Source: Chromatocurvus halotolerans (lineage in GTDB: Bacteria > Pseudomonadota > Gammaproteobacteria > Pseudomonadales > Halieaceae). From it: a stretch of 64,000 nt of DNA. How positions within the stretch are numbered: position 1 is the first letter of the stretch; every line of letters starts with the position of its first letter. The position numbers and the translations under genes are program-made. Positions 7,445-14,448 of the stretch are shown here, piece after piece. The stretch is taken from the NCBI RefSeq assembly GCF_004340525.1, contig NZ_SLWX01000002.1, positions 186,001 through 250,000 on the forward strand. The letters are read 5' to 3'. The notes under the pieces were generated by a model, which saw only the letters and a program-made list of their open reading frames with translations, did no database searches and was not told the DNA's origin.

Positions 7445-7560
7445 TTAAAACGAAACGGTTAATCAGGTTCATATAAAACCAATTGGGTTTAATTTACTCC
7501 AATAAAACCTATTAGGTTGAATATACTGGTGTTCAACTGATAAGGTTTGTCCGTTTTCAA
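7445..7560 (+). promoter_or_regulatory. Four-unit operator array with 29-bp period upstream of satD
   Basis: Four consecutive 29-bp units start at 7445, 7474, 7503 and 7532. Each contains a 13-mer (7448, 7477, 7506, 7535) related to AACCTATTAGGTT, which in unit 3 is a perfect palindrome with one central base. Units 2 and 3 agree at 21 of 29 positions (shared TAAAACC, ATT, GGTT, AAT, TACT). Unit 2 core matches 11/13, unit 4 10/13, unit 1 8/13. The array ends 14 bp before the satD ATG, lies in AT-rich sequence unlike its surroundings and contains ATATACT, a candidate -10. It is best read as a repressor binding array. The HTH at the SatD C-terminus or another regulator could bind it; this is inference. 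Confidence 0.7.
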
Positions 7561-7574
7561 CCACAACGGATGTA

Positions 7575-8216
7575 ATGAGCGTGCAATATCTCGTTCTGAT
7601 TGGCGACCTGCGAGACTCCCGTCGCGTGAAGGATCGCGCGGGCCTGCAGCACCTTTTCGAGTCGTCGCTCGCGTTCCTGAACAAGCGTTTTCGGGGGGCG
7701 CTTGCCTCACCACTCACCGTTACCCTCGGTGATGAGTTTCAGGCGGTGTTCTCAGACCCGCTTCCTGTCTGGGAGATACTCTCCGCCCTGCAGGCGCGGC
7801 TGTTTCCGGTAACGGCACGCTTCGGCCTTGGGCTTGGCCAAATCGCAACGCCTGTCAATCCTCAGGCAGCGCTCGGCATGGATGGCCCCGCCTTCTATCG
7901 CGCGCGGGATGCTATTGTTCAGCTAAAAGAAGAGGGCGGGAATTATCGCATTGAGGGCCTTGATGACGCCGACCTGATCAATCACACCTTGTCTCTGGTG
8001 TCTGGTCTGCAGGAAAGCTGGCATTGCAATCGTTTCGCTACGTATCACAGCTTTCTGTCGGGTGTCCCGGTCCAGCGTATCGCACAGGAACTGAAAATCA
8101 GCAAGACCGCCGTCTACAAGAACCTGCATGACGGGCATCTTCACCCGATCTCCGGTATTCACAGGTCAATTGCAGCAAAGATGGCGGCGGCGATGGAAAC
8201 GACAGCGGATGCCTGA
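7575..8216 (+). CDS. SatD-family protein: cyclase-like N-terminal domain plus HTH
   Basis: 213 residues. Residues 5-125 fit the SatD family. They also show the order of motifs of class III nucleotide cyclases: an Asp after a first strand (LIGDLRDSR, D11), TLGDEFQAVF (50-59, compare the x-GD-xxxAxF second metal site), ARFGLGLGQI (81-90) and GMDGPAFYRARDAI (101-114). The asparagine of the usual N-x3-R pair is not evident. Residues about 164-187 (VPVQRIAQELKISKTAVYKN) form a helix-turn-helix. So this may be a nucleotide-sensing or -making regulator; the cyclase link is my inference, the SatD family call is firmer. It overlaps the next gene by 8 bp and follows the operator array. Confidence 0.75.
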   Translation: MSVQYLVLIGDLRDSRRVKDRAGLQHLFESSLAFLNKRFRGALASPLTVTLGDEFQAVFSDPLPVWEILSALQARLFPVTARFGLGLGQIATPVNPQAALGMDGPAFYRARDAIVQLKEEGGNYRIEGLDDADLINHTLSLVSGLQESWHCNRFATYHSFLSGVPVQRIAQELKISKTAVYKNLHDGHLHPISGIHRSIAAKMAAAMETTADA

Positions 8217-8964
8217 TTACCAGCTATACCTGTGCCTGATGCTTGTCACCCGCCTGGTGTATCTGCGTCAGGATGCCGCTGCCAGCTGGCGATTTTCATT
8301 GACATTGGCTCTGTCTCAGGCCGCGCTGCTTTTGCTTGTCTTCGGCATTGGCGGAACCACTCTCGCCGTGATGTTCGCGGTGTCCGGTTTTACCCTTCTG
8401 GGTGGTTTGCTCGAGGCGCGAGTGTCAGTCTACGCGGTGCGGTTTGCTGTGCTCGTGCTTCTCTCGATGGCGCCCCTGGTATTGCAGCCTCTCTTCGGTG
8501 CGCTGTCGATGTCTTCACTGAGTCTGGCGGTATCGACCATGCTCGATCACGGGTTGCAGGCGCTGCTGGGCGGTGGCGTCGGGGTGCAGCGGGCTGCGCT
8601 ACCCGTTCTGCTGGGTTTTTTGCTGCTTGCCAATGAAGTTAACGTGATCATGCGCGGTGTCTTTCAGGTCCTGCGTCTGGAGCCTCGTGTGAATCCGCAG
8701 GCGGTGGATGGGAAGCCGGATATCGATGAGTACAACGCGGGCCGCGTTATCGGCATTCTTGAACGCTGGCTCATGTTCCTTGTCGTGCTCTTTACCAGCG
8801 ACTGGGCGGCCCTGGGTTTTATTGTTGCGGCCAAGAGTCTGGTACGTTTTGACCAGTTCAAGGATCGCCGATTCGCCGAATATATGCTGGTGGGAACCTT
8901 CATGTCTGCACTGTTTGCCATCGCCGTCGCCTCGATGACAGGGATGGCGCTACCTCGGCCCTGA
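8209..8964 (+). CDS. Polytopic membrane protein, DUF3307-like C-terminus, SatD partner
   Basis: 251 residues from ATG 8209, which overlaps the end of satD by 8 bp (translational coupling). Seven or so hydrophobic segments are visible. The C-terminal third (YNAGRVIGILERWLMFL, then WAALGFIVAAKSLVRFDQ and FKDRRFAEYMLVGTFMSA) matches the C-terminal part of DUF3307 membrane proteins, which commonly accompany SatD genes. The usual DUF3307 N-terminus is not obvious. Function is unknown. The conserved arginine/glutamate/lysine pattern within the membrane (GILER, AAKS, FKDR) suggests a channel or sensor rather than simple anchoring. The open frame extends upstream of 8209 but that part overlaps satD and is unlikely to be used. 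Confidence 0.8.
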   Translation: MPDYQLYLCLMLVTRLVYLRQDAAASWRFSLTLALSQAALLLLVFGIGGTTLAVMFAVSGFTLLGGLLEARVSVYAVRFAVLVLLSMAPLVLQPLFGALSMSSLSLAVSTMLDHGLQALLGGGVGVQRAALPVLLGFLLLANEVNVIMRGVFQVLRLEPRVNPQAVDGKPDIDEYNAGRVIGILERWLMFLVVLFTSDWAALGFIVAAKSLVRFDQFKDRRFAEYMLVGTFMSALFAIAVASMTGMALPRP

Positions 8965-11055: not shown

Positions 11056-11548
11056 TACATCGCCGGCGCGGTGGCTTCACGTCGCCATCTTGGCCGCGCT
11101 CGTTGTGCAATGTGCGCTGTTACTGTCCGTCGCGCCCCTTGCGGCAGCCGCCACCTTTGGTGCGTCTGCGCTCGCGCTCTGGAGTCTCCGCCAGGCTTCG
11201 CTGGCAACGGGGATGCTCTCCCTCACCGAGGAGGGCTGGTGCCTGGTCGATGACGCGGGGTTGTGCTGGCGCGCGCCCCTGCCTGCCATTTCCATGGTGT
11301 CCTTTGCCTGCGCGATACGGCTTCGCCGGGGTTACCGCTGCCGCTGGGTCTTGGTCACCCGTGGCGTCTGCGGCACGGGGCCGTGGCGGGCGTTACGCCG
11401 AGCGGTGACTCTTTATGCGCGGCCCATCCGGTTCAAGGATCGTGTCCGTTCCCGTCTCCTGGGTATCCGGGTAATCCAGCGTGAAGTGCAGCCCGCGGCT
11501 CTCCCGACGTTCCAGCGCACTGCGAATCATCAGCTCGGACACCATTGA
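10997..11548 (+). CDS. YgfX/CptA-like inner-membrane protein with antisense C-terminal extension
   Basis: About 183 residues if translation starts at TTG 10997, which has a GGAGG nine bases upstream; no in-frame ATG exists near the expected start. The body fits YgfX: a WLHVAILAALVVQCALLLS first helix, a second hydrophobic segment, then soluble beta strands and WRALRRAVTLYARP. The family usually stops there at about 135 residues. Here the frame runs another 40-50 residues and overlaps the convergent nadB gene by 156 bp. A +1 shift at about 11390 would meet a stop within five codons, so a frameshift or lost stop is possible. YgfX with SdhE was once described as a toxin-antitoxin pair. Confidence 0.7.
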   Translation: MPALSTESSPVTLLAIPLADTSPARWLHVAILAALVVQCALLLSVAPLAAAATFGASALALWSLRQASLATGMLSLTEEGWCLVDDAGLCWRAPLPAISMVSFACAIRLRRGYRCRWVLVTRGVCGTGPWRALRRAVTLYARPIRFKDRVRSRLLGIRVIQREVQPAALPTFQRTANHQLGHH

Positions 11549-13006
11549 CAGGTTGCGCAGTTCGAGCAGATCGTTGCTCACCTTGTAATTCGAGTAGTAT
11601 TCGGCAATTTCGGACTGCAGCAGTTCTGCCCGGTGCAGCGCGCGCTGCAGGCGCTTCGTACTGCGGACTATCCCCACGTAGTCCCACATGAAGCGGCGCA
11701 GCTCATCCCAGTTGTGGGAAATCACCACGTCTTCATCGGAATCGGTGACCTGGCTCTCATCCCAGCCCTTGATGTCCGGGGCGCTGGCCTTGTGCAGATC
11801 GGCGCTGGCAATGTCCTCTGCCGCTGCCCGCGCAAATACGATGCATTCGAGCAGTGAGTTGCTGGCCATGCGGTTGGCACCATGCAGCCCGGTAAACGAG
11901 CATTCCCCCACCGCGTAAAGTCCCGGGATATCGGTTCGCGCCCGGGTGTCGACCACGATGCCGCCGCAGGTATAGTGCGCCGCCGGAACCACGGGAATGG
12001 GTTCCTGCGCGATATCAATGCCGAATTCGGCGCAGCGGGCCATGATGGTAGGGAAGTGCCCGCGCAGAAAGTCCTCACTCTGGTGGGATATGTCGAGATA
12101 CACGCAGTCGATGCCCAGACGTTTCATCTCGTGGTCGATGGCCCGGGCGACGATGTCCCGCGGCGCCAGTTCCGCGCGCTCGTCGAAGCGCTGCATGAAG
12201 CGATCGCCGTCCGGCAGGCGAAGCACAGCACCTTCGCCGCGCAGCGCCTCGGAGATCAGGAAGGACTTCGCCCTCGGATGATAGAGGCAGGTGGGGTGGA
12301 ACTGGTTGAACTCCATGTTACCGACCCGGCAACCCGCCCGCCAGGCCATGGCGATACCGTCGCCACTGGCGCCGTCCGGGTTGCTGGTATACAGGTAAGC
12401 CTTGCTGGCGCCGCCGGTTGCCAGAATGACCGCCGGCGCCTGGAACAGATCAACATGATCGCTGCGCTGATTCAGCGCATAGACGCCATGGCAATGGCCG
12501 TTGCGCACCACTAGGTCCACGGCCACGCGATGGGTAAACACCTCGACGTTGTCCGCTGCCTGTACTTCGCTCCCCAGTACATCGCCGATGGCGCGGCCGG
12601 TCTGGTCGGTGGAGTGAATGATGCGACGGTGGCTGTGGCCGCCTTCCTGCACCAGGTGAAACTCGGGCGCCGCGTCGGCCGCCTGATCGTCGCGGCGGTC
12701 GAAATTGACGCCAAGCCCGACCAGCCACTCCACGCAATCGCGGCTGTGGCGGACGGTAAACTCCACTACCTCACGGTGGCAGAGCCCCGCGCCGGCCCGC
12801 AGCGTGTCTTCGACATGTGAATCCACCGTGTCGCGATCGTGCAGTACGGCTGCCATTCCGCCCTGCGCCCAGTACGTTGCCCCCTGCGCAATGTCCGCCT
12901 TGGATATCAGGGCGATGCGCAGGTGCCCTGGCAGGCGCAGTGCGGCGCTGAGGCCCGCGGCCCCGCTACCGATGATGACGACGTCGTGGCGCCAGTGTTG
13001 TCCCAT
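11393..13006 (-). CDS. nadB: L-aspartate oxidase
   Basis: 537 residues from ATG 13006 (E. coli enzyme 540). The FAD dinucleotide motif is GSGAAGLSAAL near the N-terminus. Catalytic blocks include ATYWAQGGMAAVL, EGGHSHRRIIHSTDQTG and GLHGANRMASNSLLE, all of which place it in the aspartate oxidase branch of the fumarate reductase family. It makes iminoaspartate for quinolinate and NAD synthesis. The gene is divergent from rpoE, the classical arrangement. Its 3' end is overlapped by ygfX. Confidence 0.96.
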   Translation of the reverse strand: MGQHWRHDVVIIGSGAAGLSAALRLPGHLRIALISKADIAQGATYWAQGGMAAVLHDRDTVDSHVEDTLRAGAGLCHREVVEFTVRHSRDCVEWLVGLGVNFDRRDDQAADAAPEFHLVQEGGHSHRRIIHSTDQTGRAIGDVLGSEVQAADNVEVFTHRVAVDLVVRNGHCHGVYALNQRSDHVDLFQAPAVILATGGASKAYLYTSNPDGASGDGIAMAWRAGCRVGNMEFNQFHPTCLYHPRAKSFLISEALRGEGAVLRLPDGDRFMQRFDERAELAPRDIVARAIDHEMKRLGIDCVYLDISHQSEDFLRGHFPTIMARCAEFGIDIAQEPIPVVPAAHYTCGGIVVDTRARTDIPGLYAVGECSFTGLHGANRMASNSLLECIVFARAAAEDIASADLHKASAPDIKGWDESQVTDSDEDVVISHNWDELRRFMWDYVGIVRSTKRLQRALHRAELLQSEIAEYYSNYKVSNDLLELRNLSMVSELMIRSALERRESRGLHFTLDYPDTQETGTDTILEPDGPRIKSHRSA

Positions 13007-13116
13007 GGAATTTCCGTCAGCCCGGTGTGAGTGTGTGCAAAAAACGCGGCGGCGTGAGAAGCTTGACCGCAGTATAGTCGACCCGACGAGGGTGACGAAG
13101 ACATTCAATGAATGAT

Positions 13117-13205: not shown

Positions 13206-13787
13206 GTGACGGCAACGGCCACGGACAAACAGCTGGTTGCCAGGGTGCAGAAGGGGGACAACCGCGCCTTCGATCTGCTTGTGCTCAAATATCAGCACAA
13301 GATCCTGGGGTTGATCAGCCGTTACATCCAGGATTCGGACGAAATGCAGGATGTTGCACAGGAAGCGTTCATCAAGGCATACCGTGCCTTGCCCGGCTTT
13401 CGTGGCGACAGTGCGTTCTATACCTGGCTGTACCGGATTGCGATCAACACGGCCAAAAATCACATTGTGGCGCGCTCCCGCCGCCCCCCCGGCAGTGATG
13501 TCGAGGTTGAGGACGCGGAGTATTATGATGGGGGCGGTGCCCTGCGCGATCTGGAAAACCCGGAAAATGCGCTTTTTGGTGAAGAATTGAAAGCGGTTGT
13601 CGAAGCCGCCATTGCAGATCTGCCTGATGATTTGCGCACTGCGGTAACTTTGCGGGAATTTGATGGTCTCAGTTATGAGGACATCGCGGATGTCATGGAT
13701 TGCCCGGTAGGCACCGTGCGTTCACGCATTTTCCGGGCACGCGAGGCTATTGATGCCAAAGTCACCGCCCAGATTGATGGCAGCTAG
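13206..13787 (+). CDS. rpoE: RNA polymerase sigma-E factor (RpoE/AlgU)
   Basis: 193 residues, GTG start after an AAGGAGG site; the ATG at 13196 is out of frame. Region 2 (LVLKYQHKILGLISRYI to AYRALPGFRGDSAFYTWLYR) and region 4 (DLRTAVTLREFDGLSYEDIA, then CPVGTVRSRIFRARE) are complete, as in ECF group 2 sigma factors. It directs the envelope-stress regulon and is released when RseA is degraded. It heads rpoE-rseA-rseB-rseC-mucD, the order known from Pseudomonas (algU-mucABCD). Confidence 0.97.
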   Translation: MTATATDKQLVARVQKGDNRAFDLLVLKYQHKILGLISRYIQDSDEMQDVAQEAFIKAYRALPGFRGDSAFYTWLYRIAINTAKNHIVARSRRPPGSDVEVEDAEYYDGGGALRDLENPENALFGEELKAVVEAAIADLPDDLRTAVTLREFDGLSYEDIADVMDCPVGTVRSRIFRAREAIDAKVTAQIDGS

Positions 13788-13827
13788 CAAGGGCGTCGCA
13801 GCATGCGGCGGCAACCAGAGGTAACGA

Positions 13828-14448
13828 ATGACCCACAGTACGCAAACGGAAGGCCATATGAACGAGTCCATGCGCGAATCCTTGTCTGCATTGATGGATG
13901 GAGAAGCGAGCGAGATAGAACTGCACCGCATTCTCGCCAGTACCGATGACGATGAACTTCGGGCCGCCTGGTCCGGCATGCACCGCAACAGCGATATTCT
14001 GCGCGGAACCGCGGTGATAACCCGGATGGATATTTCCCGAGCGGTCAGTGAGTCGGTTGCGAAGATCGATTTCGCACCCGTGGCCGACAAGGTCGCCGGC
14101 GGTGGAATGCGCCGGTCGCTGGTAAGTTTTGCCGTGGCGGCCTCGGTCACTGCCGTGGTCGTATTCGGCGGACAGCAGTTTCTGACATCGCCCGACAGCA
14201 TCACGCCGGCAGGTGTCGGATCACCGGGTCTGGTCAATTCCGGCGGTGCGGTTCCCGTCCGTGCCAGCTTCGGCTCACGCACGGAACAGCCGTCCATGGT
14301 GCTGCAACCCGCTACAGGGGCGGGCTACCAGGAACTCGCGCGACAGCGGCTGCGCAAGTACAGCCAGGCTCACGCGGAACAGGCAGCGCTGAACACGCCA
14401 CAGGGCCTCGTGCCGTTTGCCCGCGTTCAGGACATCCAGTCACAGTAA
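13828..14448 (+). CDS. rseA: Anti-sigma-E factor RseA (MucA)
   Basis: 206 residues. The cytoplasmic N-terminus (MNESMRESLSALMDGEASE, then ELRAAWSGMHRNSDILRG) is the sigma-binding domain of the RseA family. One membrane segment follows at about 95-112 (RSLVSFAVAASVTAVVVFG), then a periplasmic tail rich in Gly/Pro/Ser and ending in ordered sequence. It holds RpoE inactive until DegS-like cleavage and RseP. The chosen start has GAGGTAACG before it; ATG 13858 is an alternative that would drop ten residues. Confidence 0.9.
   Translation: MTHSTQTEGHMNESMRESLSALMDGEASEIELHRILASTDDDELRAAWSGMHRNSDILRGTAVITRMDISRAVSESVAKIDFAPVADKVAGGGMRRSLVSFAVAASVTAVVVFGGQQFLTSPDSITPAGVGSPGLVNSGGAVPVRASFGSRTEQPSMVLQPATGAGYQELARQRLRKYSQAHAEQAALNTPQGLVPFARVQDIQSQ

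Follow-up and report, generated by a model that had tools for sequence, protein, structure and literature searches.

What does a protein that joins a nucleotide-cyclase-like domain to a DNA-binding domain do when its gene is overlapped by that of a membrane protein? Such a pair is formed by satD and its downstream neighbour in the window analysed here, a stretch of 64,000 nucleotides of Chromatocurvus halotolerans (contig NZ_SLWX01000002.1, positions 186,001 to 250,000). We consider it probable that SatD regulates its own operon, sensing a nucleotide through its cyclase-fold domain and oligomerising on a phased array of operators. The results that carry this reading are the predicted fold of SatD, its conserved metal-site residues, its linkage to the membrane partner, the phased array in front of satD, and an association between the type of operator dyad and the SatD recognition helix (Table 1).

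The SatD of the window matched the Pfam SatD family (PF16264) over residues 5–184 (E = 5.3e-29; 101.8 bits against a cut-off of 29) and is the one SatD detected by Pfam in the host genome (3.91 Mb, 45 contigs). Its AlphaFold model, built on 40 aligned SatDs (alignment A1, i.e., the window protein plus 39 loci from a set of 44 that had been collected with exact peptides, e.g., GDEFQAVF), had a predicted local distance difference test score (pLDDT) of 97 and the secondary-structure order b-a-b-b-a-b-a-b, followed by helices. Foldseek listed 50 PDB matches to this model (E 3.2e-5 to 9.2e-4), and 49 of these belong to the nucleotide-cyclase superfamily, i.e., class III adenylyl and guanylyl cyclases, cUMP synthase, GGDEF proteins, two mCpol entries of the Panoptes system, and Cmr (Cas10); the remaining listed match was 9f80, a fragment of the Rv2242 regulator. 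TM-scores over the whole query were modest (0.29–0.45), partly as a result of the helix-turn-helix (HTH) half of SatD lying outside the matched regions. When the Foldseek matches were re-examined with VIA-align 2, GTP cyclohydrolase III ranked first (Z 10.2, root-mean-square deviation 2.5, 111 residues), and the other 49 rows listed, whose titles point to class III, GGDEF and type III CRISPR proteins, had Z of 8.5–9.3.

A PDB search with the single SatD sequence returned nothing useful. Using hhalign, a profile of SatD residues 1–130 (96 sequences, 88 of them used) was compared with 30 class III domains and gave a probability of 92.4% (P = 5.1e-7), against 0.3%, 0.5% and 0.1% in three reversed controls; SatD against GGDEF gave 38.7%, and class III against GGDEF 30.3%. 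The pairing covered residues 4–94, with D11 on the class III strand-1 Asp, G52-D53 on the GD, and R82...G88 on the R-I-G-x-x-x-G strand. The confident alignment ends at residue 94, short of helix 3; when forced onward, it paired this helix differently and left G104 unmatched to the class III G-x-x-x-N. Independently of these comparisons, a class III cyclase (L050) in a relative was picked up by the Pfam SatD model, below the curated cut-off (E = 2.7e-4 for that genome, about 0.016 over all 58 genomes searched); this protein matches Guanylate_cyc at 1.7e-14. Taken together, the predicted model and its matches support the assignment of the N-terminal half of SatD to the palm fold of the class III cyclase/GGDEF/mCpol superfamily.

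A first-pass annotation of this DNA, made from the letters and their translated reading frames, had compared SatD by eye with class III cyclases. The four motifs that it quoted, LIGDLRDSR (with D11), TLGDEFQAVF (with D53), ARFGLGLGQI and GPAFYRARDAI, are all present in SatD, and the ferredoxin-like palm on which it had staked its reading agrees with both the model and the structural matches. The C-terminal HTH that it had described was borne out by weak HTH profile matches at about residues 144–199 and by the helical C-terminus of the model. In the genome G000, SatD would work among many other cyclases, as GGDEF is matched there 37 times and class III cyclase 3 times.

Because the 44 loci used for the model had been found with exact peptides, motif conservation was judged on 48 distinct SatDs found by profile and not by motif. 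Identical proteins were removed before the residue, spacing and partner-core counts, and one HTH-only match (L070) was dropped from all counts. D11 and S15 were conserved in 47/47 of these SatDs with a residue there (one start is cut), and G52, D53, G88 and G104 in 48/48; Q56 was found in 46/48, E54 in 37/48 (Ser in 8/48), R82 in 35/48 (His in 13/48), and R111 in 32/48. In 12 further SatDs found only via their partner, D11, S15, D53, Q56, R82, G88 and G104 were each present in 12/12 and G52 in 11/12, with R111 in 0/12 and a residue other than Glu at E54 in 8/12. Conservation of D11 and D53 across SatD proteins, the check proposed together with the first comparison, was thus found in both sets.

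The residues expected to complete a class III active site were looked for in all 96 SatDs. Lys at column 49, three before GD, was found in 0/96 (within columns 47–51, Lys occurred only at column 48, in 4/96); we take the Lys before GD to be the substrate-specifying residue of class III cyclases. Asn at column 108, which by eye, counted from G104, matches the class III transition-state Asn, was likewise found in 0/96, and columns 103–112 (helix 3) held no conserved Asn, in keeping with the earlier remark that the Asn of the catalytic pair is not apparent. R111 was present in 80/96 and replaced in 16/96, and by eye it lies one residue out of register with N-x3-R, presumably the transition-state Asn and Arg of class III enzymes. 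Because SatD has no conserved Lys before GD and no conserved Asn in helix 3, it is not a canonical cyclase. The canonical class III assignment is ruled out by these residues, and of the original description as a divergent class III cyclase the palm fold and the metal Asps stood, whereas strict class III membership did not. A GGDEF assignment was also rejected, as the motif is xGDEF and not GG[D/E]EF (x is Gly in 0/96) and the profile probability was well below that for class III. Judged from the alignments, the metal-site half of the active site is retained, the cyclising half not; by analogy with the superfamily, the kept half would bind a metal-nucleoside triphosphate (metal-NTP).

The membrane gene overlaps satD by 8 bp (ATG at 8209, satD stop at 8216), as first described. 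Its product matched 0 Pfam families and no NCBIfam model, hence not DUF3307 (PF11750), and the DUF3307 label was ruled out for it; the looser description as DUF3307-like holds in the sense that it is homologous to the DUF3307-bearing partners of other SatDs (profile–profile 99.9%, P = 2.7e-31). We distinguished four partner types, i.e., the window type (about 250 aa), the DUF3307 type, the Actinobacterial type and a 110-aa type, all homologous by profile–profile comparison (95.9–99.9% against the window type and 90.1–99.0% among the rest, with reversed controls below 2%). The 110-aa type matches the C-terminal 70 residues of the others, and the part common to all four is a C-terminal core outside the stretch matched by PF11750; DUF3307 forms the N-terminal part in 4/4 scanned partners of its type (one haloarchaeal, one from Fusobacterium, and two from the phylum of G059). 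Within the core, G182, E185, R186, K209, G229 and S233 were found in 72/72 compared partners and R213 in 71/72. These 72 were picked by type, loci without a downstream open reading frame (ORF) of at least 200 aa being excluded (the 110-aa type excepted); several other loci, e.g., L032, L042–L045, L053, L057 and L073, were omitted from the 72 and core-tested in the 96-locus profile search.

That search detected the partner core downstream of 86 of the 96 distinct SatDs, 48 of the 86 being outside the profile. In 198 genomes around G059, the core was present in 62, including 36 of the 37 with a Pfam SatD, and it lay directly downstream at 39 of 40 SatD places, the fortieth being at a contig end. 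The other 26 of the 62 had no Pfam SatD; loci were fetched for 12 of them, and a custom profile identified SatD upstream in 12/12 (E ≤ 2e-22). The coupling to a membrane protein seen by the first-pass annotation was supported, as close gene linkage. At one satD without the core (L191, G009:C11:16500-22500; L048), both flanks are near-copies of a gene starting MASMAFDTLQYARRLRAAGFPEPQADVQ. The model of the window partner had a pLDDT of 91; its fold found no PDB structure with E better than 0.32, its sequence found PDB entries only at E of at least 0.5, and the best VIA matches (Z up to 7.0) were unrelated helical proteins, aligned mostly over residues 1–113 with the C-terminal core barely covered. 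By Pfam, PDB sequence and fold searches, no S-2TM-beta, CARF, SAVED or nucleotide-binding domain was recognised in the window partner.

Two other accounts of the palm bear on these results. SatD could be catalytically active, as an mCpol- or GGDEF-like nucleotide cyclase or oligonucleotide synthase that works with D11 and D53/E54, and with a product that signals to the membrane partner as in Panoptes (OptS–OptE), which we regard as rather unlikely. Both metal Asps are invariant, E54 supplies the second acid of a GDEF motif, as in GGDEF, in 37 of the 48 profile-found SatDs, the 50 listed structural matches include Panoptes OptS (9pd0 at rank 32 and 9mnr at rank 44), and the portion consulted of PMC12657218 describes the same two-gene plan of a palm protein with a membrane protein. 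However, E54 is replaced by Ser in 8/48 and is not Glu in 8 of the 12 others, SatD lacks the Lys and Asn of class III enzymes, the searches with the window partner recognised no known nucleotide-binding domain, and the neighbourhood shows no consistent defence content (72 ORFs, 25 of 77 families listed). Alternatively, and in our view unlikely, the palm is a fossil, serving as a mere dimerisation or oligomerisation platform while the signal passes through contact with the membrane partner. The lack of a conserved catalytic Lys or Asn fits such a role, and the nearly constant presence of the partner core would be in keeping with a partner that sequesters SatD directly at the membrane, but D11, S15 and D53 are kept across clades in which R111, E54 and helix 3 have diverged, a pattern that is difficult to account for unless there is a metal-nucleotide ligand.

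The operator array before satD was absent from the first-pass annotation, and we judge it to be the strongest clue to mechanism. Three predicted dyads of the form AAC[C/T]-N5-[A/G]GTT (13 bp) lie at −98, −69 and −40 relative to satD, and they are the only matches to AACYNNNNNRGTT in the 64-kb window. A TATACT hexamer at 7522–7527, after the second dyad, is by eye a possible −10 element; the promoter scan reported no sigma-70 site on the + strand at the array. At least one such dyad was found before satD in 38 of 101 loci (a few of them repeats), giving 83 strict dyads against 1.1 expected in shuffles, and when only distinct proteins were kept there were 76 strict dyads at 35 loci, with 36 of 41 neighbour spacings being 28 or 29 bp; these dyad counts, and the lag counts below, rest on start codons chosen by script. 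The dyad-bearing loci come from Gammaproteobacteria, Ignavibacteria, KSB1, Chloroflexi and a Balneolota-type group.

Genome-wide searches placed the arrays at satD. Among the genomes of 56 relatives, paired dyads occurred at the satD promoters of G000, G009 and G016. The only other occurrence was within a reading frame of G053, a genome without a Pfam SatD over the cut-off; the remaining 50 of the 51 relatives without such a SatD had no paired dyads, and the reversed dyad pattern occurred in four genomes, once each. In a set of 23 satD genomes, 16 had dyad pairs, and 28 of the 31 pairs lay at satD (by comparing places). A wider SatD regulon was rejected on this count, the rest being one pair each in G980 (phoU-like), G990 (inside a frame) and G988 (a contig-end copy). 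These three may be chance, because a control pattern was present in 3/23 of the same genomes. In the first of them (L186, 3878–3918; G980:C222:21877-21917), satD-type paired dyads precede a PhoU-like gene and follow a pst-like cluster (by eye), and they may reflect either chance or a second SatD target. The satD arrays reach up to −198; a reading of the dyads as RNA hairpins is not favoured by the sequences, because the arrays extend that far and because mismatches of the types C..A (9) and T..G (18) both occur.

The spacing of the dyads was also recovered by an unsupervised test. When the best self-repeat between 15 and 60 bp was sought in each satD promoter (112, reduced to 95 by dropping similar upstream regions), 28 or 29 bp was the sole best lag in 48/95, compared with about 2.5 of 95 expected from single-base shuffles, which preserve base composition only, and with 2/83 in control stretches of 160 bp after the satD stop. 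By clade, the sole 28/29-bp lag was found in 17/35, 4/19 (Actinobacterial), 14/23, 8/10 and 5/8. Dyads of other sequences were found elsewhere, i.e., ATAAG-N7-CTTAT (5 of 21 Actinobacterial-type loci), TTTCA-N7-TGAAA (7 of 15 loci having the 110-aa partner), TTATC...GATAA-like dyads at several loci with DUF3307 partners, and GTTCGCC...-like dyads in a haloarchaeon. As read from these promoters, dyad spacing is kept better than dyad sequence across the SatD clades. On a plasmid of Halorientalis sp. IM1011 (L051, 138819–140236), an archaeal satD and a DUF3307 gene overlap by 4 bp, and the dyads there have a 29-bp phase and a sequence unlike those of the window.

The AACC dyad was found before 29 of 33 SatDs with an AVYK-type recognition helix and before 0 of 25 with an AVSQ-type helix. 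That dyad type follows the recognition helix suggests that the protein bound to the dyads is SatD, and their constant spacing suggests that dimers on adjacent dyads touch. One locus (L029, upstream of satD, 179–802) combines an AVSQ helix, which was misread in the helix-class count, and an ATAAG-type dyad, yet has a window-type partner, and a swap of DNA specificity is possible there. It is very improbable that another regulator binds the array while SatD acts elsewhere: SatD–dyad binding is itself a prediction, and pairs do occur before the phoU-like gene of G980 and in G053, but the G053 pair lies inside a reading frame, the other 50 relatives of its kind have none, 28/31 pairs in satD genomes sit at satD, and dyad type goes with the SatD helix.

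From these results we infer the following scheme for SatD as a nucleotide-sensing autoregulator. The satD and membrane genes would form a two-gene, self-regulated module with SatD as its one-component transcription factor; an HTH and dyads in its own promoter are both present in satD. The palm would be a degenerate one that keeps the two-Asp metal site and the D-[ILV]-x-x-S loop, and it most likely binds metal-NTP or another nucleotide as the signal. The HTH would bind the dyads every 28–29 bp over its own promoter, bringing several dimers side by side, the simplest arrangement being an oligomer that keeps the operon repressed until there is a change of signal, SatD leaving the array or rearranging on it when the palm gains or loses nucleotide. 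The output of the operon would be the membrane protein, with the GxxER-KxxxR-GxxxS core as its putative functional heart, and this protein is probably harmful if overproduced. According to PMC11323703, S. pyogenes satD is present in 178 of 249 genomes and, by pooled transposon data, is essential in the tested strains and conditions, with no other accessory gene reaching the top essentiality class. A gene that is accessory yet essential would fit a repressor or antidote of something harmful.

Several observations weigh against this scheme. The number of dyads in the window is by itself unremarkable (1.1 expected, and 8 of 100 shuffles reach three); because three matches alone are not rare, the evidence lies in their clustering and phase, all three being in phase here, and not in their number. 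Two satD-bearing relatives (G002 and G025) have no perfect dyad pair, and in 47 of the 95 promoters 28 or 29 bp was not the sole best lag, the Actinobacterial clade (4/19) being weak. By the pattern used, the recognition helix belongs to neither class at 37/95 loci, 2 of which have AACC dyads, and the helix–dyad count ignores phylogeny. No partner core followed 10/96 SatDs; of these, seven have none (L015, L048 in G009, L058–L061 and L072), L035 has a weak match, and the sequence ends too soon at L020 and L076. SatD may also activate rather than repress its operon. The S. pyogenes pattern is known from the paper alone, and its link to a repressor role is one that we infer.

Genome surveys found Pfam SatD over the cut-off in 5/58, 5/321, 12/198, 3/201 and 32/198 genomes. 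These frequencies are rough lower bounds, each survey including its satD-bearing starting genome, because Pfam under-reports SatD, as the SatDs upstream at 12/12 Pfam-negative partner loci indicate. No SatD match was found in 50,697 phage records, and 63 stretches of viral contigs that fitted a search pattern included 0 SatD relatives; the DUF3307 label does appear in a phage gene table in the section consulted of PMC8504454. A defence-island setting was rejected. In 72 neighbour ORFs, hand-picked from 175 listed and called mechanically, PADLOC (E 1e-10) found no family in more than 3/72 (mad8), among 25 of 77 families listed, and Pfam (E 1e-8) found none in more than 2/72, among 25 of 84 families listed. 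On the conjugative plasmid pAt of Agrobacterium tumefaciens (L053, 31242–37790), satD lies near genes for a DUF4365 protein, an antitoxin and a nucleotidyltransferase-HEPN protein, with the partner core next downstream, annotated there as a hypothetical protein.

In the window, the pair is flanked upstream, on the other strand, by an amidohydrolase-like ORF and downstream by a uracil-DNA-glycosylase-like ORF. Further along, an RpoE-like sigma factor ORF and, after it, a likely anti-sigma ORF occupy 13206–14448, next to an L-aspartate-oxidase-like gene on the opposite strand (11393–13108). All of these names were given by eye.

Table 1 Predicted features of the satD locus (window coordinates)
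Feature	Position	Strand	Basis
Operator dyad 1 (predicted), AACCAATTGGGTT	7477..7489	.	Dyad pattern search
Operator dyad 2 (predicted), AACCTATTAGGTT	7506..7518	.	29 bp after dyad 1
Operator dyad 3 (predicted), AACTGATAAGGTT	7535..7547	.	29 bp after dyad 2
satD, cyclase-fold domain + C-terminal HTH, 213 aa	7575..8216	+	Open frame, Pfam, model, profile comparison
SatD residues 1–130, nucleotide-cyclase palm domain (b-a-b-b-a-b-a-b)	7575..7964	+	Predicted model, structural matches, hhalign
SatD D11 codon, counterpart of first class III metal Asp	7605..7607	+	Alignment, conservation
SatD D53 codon, counterpart of second class III metal Asp (GD of GDEF)	7731..7733	+	
SatD residues 151–186, HTH, recognition helix around KTAVYKN	8025..8132	+	
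Membrane partner gene, 251 aa, ATG start overlaps satD stop by 8 bp	8209..8964	+	
Partner residues 178–233, conserved C-terminal core GxxER...KxxxR...GxxxS	8740..8907	+	

For the SatD family, our results supply predictions of the fold and, in several clades, of the DNA target, together with a likely ligand site and a near-constant membrane partner with named invariant residues, making a poorly understood family directly testable. If they hold true, the cyclase palm joins the ligand-domain folds of one-component regulators, and operators have changed in sequence but kept their spacing in bacteria and an archaeon alike. Among the papers listed in searches of open-access literature on SatD, DUF3307 and the sat operon, no description of the SatD fold, the operator array or the partner core came up. 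Work on S. mutans reportedly includes Kremer 2001, on the sat operon, and Gutierrez 1999. The name of SatD derives from streptococcal acid tolerance; the sections consulted of PMC11323703 and PMC10326533 merely name it for this, and those of PMC11323703 give no mechanism.

The SatD of the window shares with the S. mutans sat operon the family match to PF16264 (residues 5–184). With class III cyclases such as Rv1900c and Ma1120 it has in common the palm fold, the metal Asps and the R-x5-G strand spacing, and it differs in lacking the Lys before GD and the helix-3 Asn (96/96) and in being fused to an HTH. GTP cyclohydrolase III, its best VIA-align match (Z 10.2), has two palm domains, whereas SatD has one palm domain and an HTH. 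The window partner is homologous by profile to DUF3307 proteins (PF11750), although it has no PF11750 match itself, and the core shared by the partner types lies C-terminal to DUF3307. Panoptes, which pairs the mCpol protein OptS with the membrane effector OptE, has the same palm-plus-membrane plan as far as the available part of its description goes, and its entries 9pd0 and 9mnr are among the listed fold matches of SatD, though not the best; PMC12657230 mentions none of SatD, HTH, class III or GGDEF. The SatD pair differs from it in having an HTH and a dyad array, in a partner that was not recognised as S-2TM-beta, and in that no defence link was seen among the 72 neighbour ORFs. It is a long shot, but in a widespread guard module SatD might act as the sensor, stacking on the phased array as a polymer gated by nucleotide and, via a nucleotide bound or made, restraining a membrane effector with a new GxxER-KxxxR-GxxxS core; the module would then be a transcription-wired cousin of Panoptes.

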